Of a DNA stretch of 64,000 bases, positions 43,511 through 47,335 are shown piece by piece. The stretch is taken from the NCBI GenBank assembly GCA_013416485.1, contig JACCEO010000002.1, positions 1-64,000 of the forward strand. The letters run 5' to 3'. Below the pieces are notes generated by a model, which saw nothing but the letters and a program-made list of their open reading frames with translations, had not been told where the DNA came from and searched no databases. Made by a program: the position numbers and the translations under genes. Source of the stretch: Alcaligenaceae bacterium (lineage in GTDB: Bacteria > Pseudomonadota > Gammaproteobacteria > Burkholderiales > Burkholderiaceae_B). Numbering within the stretch: the stretch's first letter is position 1; every line of letters begins with the position of its first letter.

Positions 43511-43612
43511 ATAATTGGCTAACTTTAAGAACAGTGTGCTAAGTACAGATATAAACCTAGGCACAAGATTAACTAATGAATATGTGACTTTACATAATAT
43601 ACATTATGCGTG

Positions 43613-44671
43613 TTAATCTTTGACCAAGCGTCGTCCAATAACCTTGGTCTTTATTGTCTTAGCAACTTGGCTTTTCTTGACGCGTCCCAGCCTTGCTTCC
43701 CACTGGCGTCTTACGTCTTGTGCCTGCTCACGGTATAAGCCAACTTGAGAAACCGCAGCATTCAATTGATCTTGAATGTGTTTGATTTCACGGTTAGCAC
43801 TATCTAGGCTTGCTGTTGCAGCTTGCAAACTACCTTCTAGGTGACCATTCCTTTGTCTGGCATCGCCCAAGAGCTCCTGTAAGGTATTTAGCTCTTGCTT
43901 GTGTTCAAAAGCCGCATCAGTAAGCGTTGTCTTCAAGGATTCAGTTTCTTTTTGAAGCTTGGACAATGCCGTACGTTCACGATCTACTTCCACCAACATA
44001 CGTTTTTCGGTGGAACGTGAGCGTTCCTCGGCCAGTTGCGATGTGGCACGTAACTTATCCAATTCAGCAGTAAATTCACGGCGCGCTGCTTCTAATTGGC
44101 TCAGCACGACAACAGTGTCATTCTTAGCCTCTTGAAATCTGACTAACAAGGATGAATTAGCCTGCTTTTCAGCTGCAAGATCTTCACGCAGCATATTTAA
44201 CTGATGAGTTACGGCCTCTAGTTGCCCGTTAACCCGTTGCAGCGCAAGTTCCTGAGTATTTCTGTCGGTTATAGCAGCATCAGCGATGGCCTTCGCTTGT
44301 CGGACTGTTTCCTGAGATTCAGCACGAAAGCTAATCAACGAGTCCTGAGCTGCAGTTTGCGCATCCGTCCAAAGCGTGGCGATCAGTTCTCCTGCCTGGT
44401 TTTTTAGGTGCTCTGGTAAATCAGGGTGCTCTACGCGTGTCCGACTTTTATCACGTAAGTCCTCCCAAAATTTTCTTAAGGCTTCAGTTGGTGCGCTCAT
44501 GCTGCCTTTACGAACCAACTGGTATAGCCGGTTTGCGGTAGGCGTAACTCCATACCGAAAGAACAATAACGCACAAACCTCACGATAAAGCTCTTGGGTT
44601 TGGGTGAAACGTTCGCGCAGTGCATCTATATCTTGTAAAAGTGCTGCATCAGCAGATAAATCACTAGTCAT
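43613..44671 (-). CDS. KfrA-like DNA-binding protein with long coiled coil
   Basis: A 352-residue protein. The first about 115 residues match the KfrA N-terminal DNA-binding domain (YGVTPTANRLYQLVRKGSMSAPTEALRKFWEDLR), and about residues 120-325 form a continuous heptad-rich coiled coil, ending in a very basic tail (RVKKSQVAKTIKTKVIGRRL). KfrA of IncP plasmids is an autoregulator that aids partition. Here it is divergent from a tyrosine recombinase gene across a perfect inverted repeat (44742-44769), which is a natural operator. Confidence 0.8.
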   Translation of the reverse strand: MTSDLSADAALLQDIDALRERFTQTQELYREVCALLFFRYGVTPTANRLYQLVRKGSMSAPTEALRKFWEDLRDKSRTRVEHPDLPEHLKNQAGELIATLWTDAQTAAQDSLISFRAESQETVRQAKAIADAAITDRNTQELALQRVNGQLEAVTHQLNMLREDLAAEKQANSSLLVRFQEAKNDTVVVLSQLEAARREFTAELDKLRATSQLAEERSRSTEKRMLVEVDRERTALSKLQKETESLKTTLTDAAFEHKQELNTLQELLGDARQRNGHLEGSLQAATASLDSANREIKHIQDQLNAAVSQVGLYREQAQDVRRQWEARLGRVKKSQVAKTIKTKVIGRRLVKD

Positions 44672-44741
44672 AGTATTACTCTATCAAATTTTATTAATAT
44701 TACTACGTAATACGTTAAGAATTTAACTATATTTATTTATC

Positions 44742-44769
44742 TTTTGACATTATTCCTATAATGTCAAAA
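44742..44769. promoter_or_regulatory. Perfect 12-bp inverted repeat between kfrA-like and integrase genes
   Basis: TTTTGACATTAT (44742-44753) is the exact reverse complement of ATAATGTCAAAA (44758-44769), spacer TCCT. Each arm contains a TTGACA-like hexamer, so it may combine promoter elements with an operator. It lies 41 bases before the integrase start and about 70 before the kfrA-like start. Confidence 0.7.
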
Positions 44770-44809
44770 AAATGAGATACTAGTGACTTCAAAATACGCT
44801 TAATTCTTT

Positions 44810-46012
44810 ATGGTCTTTACTCCTGATTTTTCCGCTGCTCTTACTGAAAGTGAAAACGAGCCTTTCCAAGCCATACTCACTGCGCCAGAATTAGATGGAA
44901 GCACTGGGCTTAACCGCGCTCATGGGAATCAGTCACAAATCGCAGCAAATACCGATATCGATGCCATCATCGCTTGGTTAACACGGTTTACAGACTCGCC
45001 CAACACCTTAGCCAATTACCGGAAAGAGGCCGAGCGTCTATTACTATGGTCAACGGGCACAATGCAAAAACCAGTGTCTTCGCTTACCCATGAAGACTTG
45101 TTGGCTTATCAGCGTTTCCTTAGCGACCCCCAACCAGCAAGCCAGTGGATAATGGGTCGTGGTCGAAAGCTCTCAAGAACACATAACGATTGGCGCCCCT
45201 TTGTAGGTCCCCTATCCCCATCTAGCCGCCGCCAAGCCACGGTTATTTTGAATGGGATGTTCTCTTGGTTGGTGGCAGCGGGTTACTTAGCCGGCAATCC
45301 CCTATCACTTTCGCGTCAACGTGCTCGTAAAGCGCAAGCCCGCGTTACACGCTATCTTGATGAAGATACTTGGAGTGAAGTTAAGCAGACTATAGATGCC
45401 TTACCACGCGACACCAAACGAAATCAGGAACATTATTTGCGCTTGCGCTGGTTATTATCTTTACTGTATTTATGTGGTCTACGAATTTCAGAGGTCACTC
45501 AAAATACAATGGGGGGATTTTTTTGTCGCCGCACTGCAGATGGACAAATCAGCTGGTGGTTAGAAGTTACCGGCAAAGGTGAAAAAATCCGGACCATCCC
45601 AGCCACACACGAACTGATGATTGAACTGGCCAATTACCGACGTGAAAAAGGGTACCCACCCTACCCTGCACCCGACGAAACTACCCCATTACTATTGCCC
45701 ATCGGGACCCAAGTCCGTCCATTAACCCGAGCTGCTGTTCATACAGTGCTGAAGCAGGTTTTCAAAAGTACTGCCGAACGCATACGCACTGGCGGTGTAA
45801 GCTTTGAATTTCAAGCACAGCATGTTGAACAAGCCTCAGCCCACTGGTTGCGGCATACTGCTGGTACTCATATGGCCAACAAACAGGTAGATCTACGCCA
45901 TGTACGAGATAATCTAGGGCACGAGTCCATCAGCACAACAAATATTTACCTACATTCCTCTGATGATGCACGGCATCGCGAAACCGAAGAGCATCACAAA
46001 ATCGACTGGTAA
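44810..46012 (+). CDS. Tyrosine recombinase/integrase
   Basis: A 400-residue tyrosine recombinase. An N-terminal SAM-like core-binding domain (FTDSPNTLANYRKEAERLLLW) is followed by the catalytic domain with CGLRISEVTQ (Arg), WLRHTAGT (H-x2-R region) and LGHESISTTNIYLH (His and Tyr). It starts with ATG 44810 without a good ribosome site. No phage genes surround it. Paired divergently with the KfrA-like gene, and followed after 36 bp by arsB on the same strand. Confidence 0.9.
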   Translation: MVFTPDFSAALTESENEPFQAILTAPELDGSTGLNRAHGNQSQIAANTDIDAIIAWLTRFTDSPNTLANYRKEAERLLLWSTGTMQKPVSSLTHEDLLAYQRFLSDPQPASQWIMGRGRKLSRTHNDWRPFVGPLSPSSRRQATVILNGMFSWLVAAGYLAGNPLSLSRQRARKAQARVTRYLDEDTWSEVKQTIDALPRDTKRNQEHYLRLRWLLSLLYLCGLRISEVTQNTMGGFFCRRTADGQISWWLEVTGKGEKIRTIPATHELMIELANYRREKGYPPYPAPDETTPLLLPIGTQVRPLTRAAVHTVLKQVFKSTAERIRTGGVSFEFQAQHVEQASAHWLRHTAGTHMANKQVDLRHVRDNLGHESISTTNIYLHSSDDARHRETEEHHKIDW

Positions 46013-46048: not shown

Positions 46049-47335
46049 ATGTTTACTGCGTTATTCATTTTTATTATCACTATTACTTTAGTTATTTGGC
46101 AGCCGCGCGGCCTGAGTATTGGTTGGAGCGCATCCCTAGGCGCTGCCCTGGCATTGTTGACGGGTGTAGTCAGCTTCAGTGACATTCCTATTGTCTGGCA
46201 AATCGTTTGGAATGCAACCGCTACCTTCGTCGCCATTATCATCATCAGCCTATTATTGGATGAAGCTGGTTTCTTTGAGTGGACGGCCCTGCACGTAGCC
46301 AGGTGGGGTGGCGGTTATGGTCGTAGACTATTCGCCTTGATCATATTGCTAGGCGCTGTCGTTTCGGCCTTCTTTGCAAATGATGGTGCTGCTTTGATAC
46401 TAACGCCTATCGTTATGGCCATGTTACTGGCATTAGGCTTCACACCTTCAGCAACTCTGGCTTTTGTAATGGCGGCTGGGTTTATCGCCGACACCGCCAG
46501 TTTGCCACTGATAGTCTCTAATCTGGTGAATATTGTTTCTGCCGATTTCTTTAACATCAGCTTTGCCGGATATGCTTCTGTCATGATACCCGTTAACATG
46601 GTGTCAGTGGCAGCAACACTTCTTGTTTTACTGCTGTATTTTCGACATAACATACCGGTCCAGTACGACGATAGCCAACTAAAGCAACCCAAGGAAGTCA
46701 TACGCGATTTGGCGACTTTCAGGGCTGGTTGGGTAGTACTAGGATTGCTGTTAATAGGTTTTTTCACATTGGAAGGACTAGGGATACCTGTTAGTGTTAC
46801 TGCCTCTTTAGGCGCCCTAGTCTTATTGTTCGTTGCTGCCCAGGGGCATGTCATTAGTACGCGTAAAGTGATACGTGAAGCCCCTTGGGCCATTGTGATT
46901 TTTTCTCTAGGTATGTATCTGGTGGTCTACGGTCTTCGTAATGCTGGGCTGACCGAAATGATTGCAAGCTTGCTGGACTATTTCGCAGATCATGGCCTGT
47001 GGGCAGCAACGTTGGGGACAGGCCTACTTACCGCCCTGCTTTCGTCCATCATGAACAATTTACCAACTGTCCTGGTAGGCGCACTTTCCATTGAAGCCAG
47101 CCAGGCCACTGGCGTCATCAAAGAAGCCATGATTTACGCCAATGTGATTGGTAGCGACCTTGGGCCAAAAATCACCCCTATCGGCAGCTTGGCTACCCTG
47201 CTGTGGTTACACGTCCTTGCTCGCAAGGGGATGACGATTACTTGGGGATATTACTTTCGAGTCGGTATAGTGCTAACCTTGCCGGTTTTGCTTTTTACCC
47301 TTGCGGCACTCGTGCTGCGATTAAGTGCAATATAA
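46049..47335 (+). CDS. arsB: Arsenite efflux permease ArsB
   Basis: A 428-residue permease with about 12 helices, very close to E. coli Ars[18 protein letters not shown] near the start, [24 protein letters not shown], and [30 protein letters not shown]. It exports arsenite and antimonite. Unusually, no arsR or arsC gene is beside it; the neighbours are an integrase upstream and a secreted orphan downstream. Confidence 0.94.

Follow-up and report, generated by a model that had tools for sequence, protein, structure and literature searches.

A KfrA-family gene and a tyrosine recombinase gene diverging around a palindromic core: a candidate recombination module often located beside dif

We analysed a 64,000-nucleotide stretch of DNA from an Alcaligenaceae bacterium (assembly GCA_013416485.1, contig JACCEO010000002.1, positions 1 to 64,000; hereafter the window), in which a gene for a KfrA-like protein and a gene for a Xer-like tyrosine recombinase diverge from a shared intergenic region, their start codons 138 bp apart. 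The KfrA-like gene (43613..44671, minus strand) encodes a 352-residue protein with a KfrA_N match above the Pfam gathering score (E=5.2e-15). Its long coiled coil is suggested by weak matches to SMC/Rad50-type families and by composition, and in domain and putative coiled coil it resembles the KfrA proteins of plasmids. The recombinase gene (44810..46012, plus strand) encodes 400 residues with a Phage_integrase match, also above the gathering score (E=2.8e-21). Residues R225, K256, H345, R348, H371 and Y380, which we take to be the catalytic set of tyrosine recombinases, are invariant across nine aligned relatives. The nearest curated models are XerC and XerD (NCBIfam), but the protein, with 103 and 99 bits, falls far below the equivalog cut-offs of 335 and 330 and so belongs to neither family as these are defined. 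Its relatives of solved structure, judged by sequence, include XerD, XerA, XerH and the integron integrase IntI4. Between the two genes lies a perfect inverted repeat, TTTTGACATTATTCCTATAATGTCAAAA, with 12-bp halves (44742-44753 and 44758-44769) that are 100% complementary across a 4-bp gap. A preliminary description, made from the letters of this DNA, had pointed to this arrangement, and the two open reading frames, their Pfam matches and the repeat were all verified.

The repeat can be laid out as a 28-bp candidate recombination core (44742..44769, no strand assigned) of 11-6-11 form, in which the arms TTTTGACATTA and TAATGTCAAAA enclose a central 6 bp (44753-44758, TTCCTA). The right arm TAATGTCAAAA agrees at 8 of 11 positions with the common XerD arm TTATGTTAAAT. 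With up to three mismatches allowed, this core is present as a single copy in the 2.78-Mb assembly, and the interval 44690-44800, taken as single-stranded DNA, folds better than 200 of 200 shuffled sequences (z=-3.91). All nine divergent pairs first examined contain TTTGACATTA-N6-TAATGTCAAA with no more than one mismatch in the arms; they carry eight different centres, the same centre occurring in L005 and L006. The wider comparison used 79 genome loci, taken from the 80 best-ranking among 486 confirmed stretches; these lean to close relatives, and several end early at contig ends. Allowing up to 4 of 20 arm mismatches, we found the core in 67 of 80 loci (the 79 plus the window). Within the arms GACATTA/TAATGTC, the GACAT and the last A on the left and the TA and TGT on the right are invariant in all 67, and the other positions vary in 1-10 of them. 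The outer three arm bases are more variable, and the sequence flanking the core carries little information. The 6-bp centre occurs in 40 forms. The outer arm bases of distant members differ in a symmetrical manner (CAC/GTG in G285, TTA/TAA in G067), as would be expected if one protein reads both arms. Because the arms are fixed and the centre is variable, the inverted repeat is best read as the core site of the recombinase, at which recombination would take place. The preliminary description had offered the palindrome as a binding site for the KfrA-like protein and advised a search for the recombinase site; on the comparative evidence the palindrome itself is probably that site, and the KfrA-like protein follows another element, described below. 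A second core is rare within the loci. Among 399 Burkholderiales genomes, the core pattern at up to two mismatches was found in seven (two in the reversed control), three of which have the module (G000, G067 and G213).

Of the 67 loci with a core, 66 were aligned on their KfrA side and yielded a consensus box, AATACAACGTAATACGTT, built around the palindrome AACGTAWTACGTT. In the window the corresponding sequence is ATTACTACGTAATACGTT (44699..44716, plus strand), which has one mismatch to AATACWACGTAWTACGTT and retains the inner palindrome AACGTAWTACGTT. The box is placed at a nearly fixed distance from the core, 25-27 bp in 60 of 66 loci (26 bp in 45, 27 bp in 13 and 25 bp in 2), and 60 of the 66 score above the second-best shuffled value. 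The median score was 21.9 on the KfrA side, compared to 2.1 for reversed, -2.5 for shuffled and -7.0 for recombinase-side sequence, with a motif that was fitted on the same 66 loci. The preliminary description had made its case depend on the two genes co-occurring in relatives, and indeed the KfrA-like gene is divergent from the recombinase gene in 55 of 79 loci (56 with the divergent KfrA_N protein of L078). Both core and box are present in all 55 loci with an adjacent KfrA gene. In the 24 loci without a detected KfrA, the core is found in 11 and the box in 4; L078, where the more divergent KfrA_N protein was found, is counted among these 24. When KfrA was sought in 17 genomes it was found in six, the six with the closest recombinases. 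The box also occurs without mismatch on plasmid pA81. We propose that KfrA is tied to the box rather than to the core and would bind the former. The idea that KfrA organises the whole terminus through numerous boxes was rejected: with up to three mismatches allowed, there are 64 boxes near the core vs 4 elsewhere in the 79 loci (reversed control 2), and 160 kb of the window's own contig holds 5 matches at up to four mismatches vs 6 in the control. At two loci the genes are arranged differently: in L040 (10001-18706) KfrA starts 7.6 kb downstream of the recombinase start and the core stays with KfrA, and in L054 (9821-13428) KfrA starts 2.4 kb downstream of the recombinase start and the core stays with the recombinase.

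Two elements that bear on function were absent from the preliminary description, namely the conserved box at 44699-44716 and a dif site that touches the KfrA stop codon. The latter is the canonical XerCD dif of the host chromosome (43587..43614, minus strand, 28 bp), which overlaps the stop codon by 2 bp. Its 24-bp core (43587-43610) has two mismatches to an E. coli-type dif core, which we take as the reference sequence. In its own genome the site is the only match without mismatch to a degenerate dif pattern, and two matches with two mismatches lie on another contig. We scanned up to 10 kb on each side of the 79 loci (604 kb on the KfrA side and 638 kb on the recombinase side) with dif arms taken from published sites, as given in the accessible portion of PMC2731167. 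Of the 79 loci, 23 contain a dif-like site, a single one each, which lies on the KfrA side in 22 and on the recombinase side in one; since the reversed control gave 2, roughly two of these sites could have arisen by chance. With a more permissive rule (4 of 18 mismatches) there were 32 matches vs 21 in the reversed control over 1.33 Mb, and a match was located within 700 bp of the KfrA end in 13 of the 50 loci that have enough sequence beyond KfrA. Relative to the module, the site points one way in 10 of 19 cases and the other way in 9. In four genomes the module and dnaA are on one chromosome-sized contig, roughly opposite each other, with the module at fractions of 0.48 (G002), 0.49 (G005), 0.50 (G127) and 0.59 (G213) of the contig from dnaA. 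The module is 14 kb from dif in G002 and 1.4 kb in G213. In G005 and G127 the GC skew switches sign around the 20-kb bin that contains the module. The 34 genomes behind this survey of distances were picked partly for a dif seen near the module, and 23 of 79 is the less biased count.

Several individual arrangements around dif were also seen. In Methylotenera mobilis 13 (L067, 6121-11128) two complete modules are inverted around dif with reverse-complementary core centres, and recombination between them would invert dif. In G029 (L170, 10429-11288, and L171, 673-1109) a broken recombinase gene lies beside dif with a kfrA fragment 10 kb further on, and an intact module is 95 kb away, so an older copy of the module seems to have decayed at dif. 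In G429 a dif-like site with a different centre (C17, 407211) lies 43 kb from the module and is possibly the site of a former plasmid.

Sequence divergence indicates that the recombinase is under strong purifying selection. The ratio of nonsynonymous to synonymous divergence (dN/dS) is 0.03-0.11 in 23 of 24 close pairs and undefined in one; these are the 24 pairs listed of 34, drawn from genomes other than the window's own. For KfrA the ratio is 0.10-0.26 where defined, except for 0.90 in the nearly identical L071/L072, with several pairs undefined, and since many dS values are near or above 1 all these ratios are rough. KfrA and recombinase distances correlate across 48 loci (r=0.65, with none of 500 permutations as high), a set that covers 48 of the 55 KfrA loci after three truncated ones and four without a clean open reading frame were left out. 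In the recombinase tree, whose bootstrap had not fully settled, a 60-row clade holds 23 of 27 dif-labelled rows and by inspection largely follows host families, and a separate 30-row clade holds 4 of 6 plasmid rows and four dif rows.

When their sequences are compared, some modules resemble mosaics whose break point is the core. Seven pairs with the same 6-bp spacer, in three groups (CGACTA, TGACTC and TGACGA), are at least 75% identical over 30 bp to the right of the core and at most 55% identical over 26 bp to the left. The same pattern was seen in one pair with different spacers and the opposite pattern in one pair; both flanks are similar in 13 same-spacer pairs and of low identity in 24, with the rest falling between, and the pairs are not independent of one another. 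Among L065, L066 and L069, and for L074 against L079 and L080, identity drops abruptly at the core, and in these comparisons the synonymous divergence of KfrA is far above that of the recombinase. Between L079 and L080 it is KfrA that is the closer half. The break in L071/L072 lies about 400 bp to the right of the core start, which indicates that ordinary recombination or chimeric assembly also occurs.

On balance, and with moderate confidence, we favour the hypothesis that the recombinase, its KfrA partner and the site form a self-contained three-part recombination module that resolves multimers and cointegrates, and that at the chromosome terminus it acts as a second dimer-resolution locus parallel to XerCD/dif. 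The hypothesis builds on what comparison across loci establishes, that is, the three-part architecture and its coinheritance, the core signature, the near-fixed spacing, the frequent position at dif or the terminus and the purifying selection; from these we infer KfrA binding to the box, recombination at the core, a bias towards resolution and a role in chromosome dimers. In the proposed mechanism, the recombinase alone would bind both arms of the symmetric 11-6-11 core, two sites would pair, and strand exchange would proceed across the 6-bp centre. The KfrA-family protein would bind the box 26 bp from the core, repress both genes and, on the box, shape the synapse such that resolution is favoured over the reverse reaction. 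The module would in this way turn multimers and cointegrates of its replicon into monomers, which on plasmids would amount to multimer resolution, and on betaproteobacterial chromosomes it would work at the terminus, often beside dif, in parallel with XerCD/dif. FtsK brings sister termini together. A simple core on the chromosome might be tolerable and useful mainly where FtsK does so, and this could explain the terminus position of the module. The stand-alone unit for DNA rearrangement envisaged by the preliminary description thus finds support. The location at dif also lends weight to the suggestion, made in that description, of chromosome dimer handling, a role that is predicted rather than observed.

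A number of observations weigh against this hypothesis. The host has its own XerC (335.7 vs a cut-off of 335.15, a narrow pass), XerD (377.1 vs 329.6) and dif, which leaves no obvious need for a second system. The family is patchy, with the recombinase in 16 of 399 Burkholderiales genomes at E<=1e-90 (up to four candidates scored per genome) and in 12 of 61 relatives at E<=1e-30. The centre is not wholly free, since its final two positions favour T (59 of 67) and A (49 of 67). The window's own contig, which starts at window base 1, has a GC skew near zero to the left of the module and of about -0.06 to -0.11 to the right, with no change of sign. Other copies lie far from dif: a full module in G429 is 2.1 Mb from the canonical site, a recombinase without KfrA and core in G428 (L042) is about 1 Mb away, and in G315 the copy and the dif-like site on that contig are 159 kb apart. 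No listed dif-like site adjoins the module in G446. In G127 dif is 17 kb off and on the recombinase side; an initial assignment of this genome as lacking dif was withdrawn when that site, one mismatch from the published Rhodoferax type, was found. No dif was found beside KfrA in seven plasmid stretches, where one weak match lies elsewhere in L029. Furthermore, only three changes of the dif label are needed on the tree of the 99 recombinases, compared to a mean of 8.2 after shuffling; the dif-linked loci therefore largely represent one inherited trait and are not independent cases.

A bolder form of the hypothesis, which we consider doubtful, is that the module is a second self-encoded dif/Xer system beside dif in Betaproteobacteria that uses exchange at its own core to pass between plasmids and chromosomes and is able to take over dimer resolution. 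The genome G005 is of interest here, as the module marks its GC-skew flip. In the 380 kb around this module no dif was better than the reversed control, and two sites with two arm mismatches occur elsewhere in the part of the genome that was read, a count without a control. No XerC or XerD orthologue was found in the 1.62 of 2.71 Mb (60%) read, where the best matches are 29% identical over 217-244 residues and higher identity extends only over about 45. The genes that neighbour xerC and xerD were also not found in this 1.62 Mb, so the remainder may hold all of them. A takeover of dimer resolution by the module in G005 is possible.

An explanation that we regard as rather unlikely is that the module is a resident left by a mobile element. 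A plasmid, or an integrative mobile element exploiting the host XerCD (IMEX), would have entered at dif and left its multimer-resolution kit behind, with no role in chromosome dimers. Relatives of the pair do occur on plasmids, metal or defence genes are found close to the recombinase end of modules, both on several plasmids and in other places, the remnant recombinase in G029 lies beside dif, and the distribution is patchy. The IMEX elements GGI, TLCphi and LME-1 are likewise located at dif, according to the accessible portions of PMC5357621 and PMC9765430. In contrast to such elements, the module has its own recombinase and its own site, and dif occurs beside it in both orientations, unlike a fixed attP. 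The stretches hold one dif-like site per locus rather than two flanking copies, although degenerate or distant second copies could be missed; given the single dif and the two orientations, an IMEX is not supported as it stands. The strong purifying selection on the recombinase and the 60-row clade that carries 23 dif-linked rows and largely follows host families also argue against a passive remnant. The preliminary description had noted the lack of phage or plasmid genes around the pair. This holds for the neighbourhood viewed in this genome, where none was seen (some neighbours were profile-scanned and the rest of 36-54 kb was judged from translations), but does not extend to the relatives on plasmids. 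A phage origin was rejected, as 6 of 50,697 phage records match, all below 60% identity.

It is also conceivable, if improbable, that the core is the attachment site of an integration or exchange system, through which circular elements that share a 6-bp centre would enter at the terminus or exchange sides there. This would account for the seven same-spacer pairs that share the recombinase side and not the KfrA side with a break at the core, for the inverted double module around dif in L067, and for the KfrA genes 7.6 kb (L040) and 2.4 kb (L054) downstream of the recombinase start. However, the site lies inside the module and not at the end of an element, the window's genome has a single core and second cores are rare in the loci, and neither an excisionase nor paired att sites were seen, in material that was not searched systematically for them.

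The resolution module that we favour is most likely similar to TnpS/TnpT/rst, the cointegrate resolvase of the Tn3-family transposon Tn4651, but with a recombinase of another branch and no transposase. The accessible portion of PMC7157771 describes a divergent tyrosine recombinase and helper with a core and accessory repeats between them, a layout that the window shares. The pWW0 gene that we take for tnpT by place and layout (L030, 29463-30461) has a KfrA_N match (E=2.6e-26, Pfam), which ties this helper to the KfrA family; in the same portion of PMC7157771 TnpT is described as having no apparent homology to other proteins. Descent of the module from a Tn4651-type transposon, as a remnant of it, could explain this shared layout and the KfrA_N match, but is very improbable and was rejected: the module recombinase has no detectable BLASTP similarity to the corresponding pWW0 recombinase (best E=0.55; the two may be distant kin within the tyrosine recombinases), and the linked Tn3 transposase (PF01526) is absent from the window's genome and from 11 of 12 genomes searched, the twelfth (G017) having it on another contig than its module. 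The module also differs from Tn4651 in its chromosomal copies at dif and its core sequence. Equally improbable is that the palindrome is a mere operator of a regulator and promoter pair without recombination, a reading that fits the shared intergenic region, where a promoter scan found nothing above chance (one promoter-like hexamer match vs 1.6 expected), but that we rejected in view of the fixed arms with a variable 6-bp centre, the separate box that follows KfrA and the mosaic breaks at the core.

The module shares further properties with the single-recombinase Xer systems XerS/difSL, XerH/difH and XerL/dif, each of which has one recombinase and a dif-like site according to the accessible portions of PMC2731167, PMC5357621 and PMC9765430. 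As in XerS and XerH, so far as these portions describe them, the gene adjoins the site and lies at the terminus; in the module, too, the recombinase gene adjoins a dif-like palindromic site of 28-30 bp, and the position at dif was seen in the window's genome and in further genomes, with exceptions. XerL, compared by its description in the part of PMC9765430 available, has perfectly palindromic arms and plasmid-borne relatives, as the module does. Unlike these systems, which stand in for XerCD, the module coexists with XerC, XerD and dif in the window's genome, and it has a dedicated KfrA-family partner with a box at a near-fixed distance. Its 11-6-11 site, its XerD-like right arm and its nearest models recall XerCD/dif itself, from which it differs in its symmetric arms, its own partner and scores far below the equivalog cut-offs.

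The resolution of chromosome dimers is commonly attributed to one system, either XerCD/dif or a single-recombinase replacement. If our hypothesis is correct, two dif-type systems would share one terminus, one of them a conserved and selected module that touches dif, which suggests a second, overlooked system that keeps chromosomes and plasmids single. Such loci would be a natural setting for studying the replacement of resolution systems, the passage of plasmid resolvases to the chromosome and the function of KfrA-family proteins. In the open-access literature, judged by titles and the starts of abstracts, we found no paper that combines KfrA with a dif site and none that combines KfrA, a tyrosine recombinase, plasmids and resolution. 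Among the open-access matches listed none names this module, and a plasmid paper with both KfrA and a tyrosine recombinase does not describe this unit in its accessible portion.

The gene next to the recombinase in the window encodes an ArsB arsenite pump (46049..47335, plus strand) and starts 36 bp from the recombinase stop; it is a neighbour and possible cargo of the module. The other neighbours scanned with Pfam are of metabolic or phasin type. Metal-resistance or anti-phage genes near modules elsewhere include cadR and a heavy-metal ATPase gene on pA81, IteA/IteS on p1-T1, dmeF on pBN2 and ars genes on pOLGA1, and, by our reading, mercury-type genes in L067; the loci with such neighbours besides the window are L067, L125, L127, L128 and L129. 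Five loci with recombinase relatives and no detected KfrA (L086, L087, L090, L092 and L099) share a recurring downstream gene set that we read as Tn7-like transposition genes, with one gene in all five and the others in four of five; in L087 the profile matches to this set are an AAA domain (E=3e-12) and a weak rve_3 match only. A 116-kb contig of G090 (C2) has two core-like sites, one at 2406 (L118) beside a distant relative of KfrA and one at 98152 (L124) beside a distant relative of the recombinase. Finally, five IMG/VR contigs encode a relative of the recombinase, and one of them, filed as viral (L112, 3887-6125), carries KfrA, a core with the centre TTACTC and the recombinase; this contig may be bacterial DNA.

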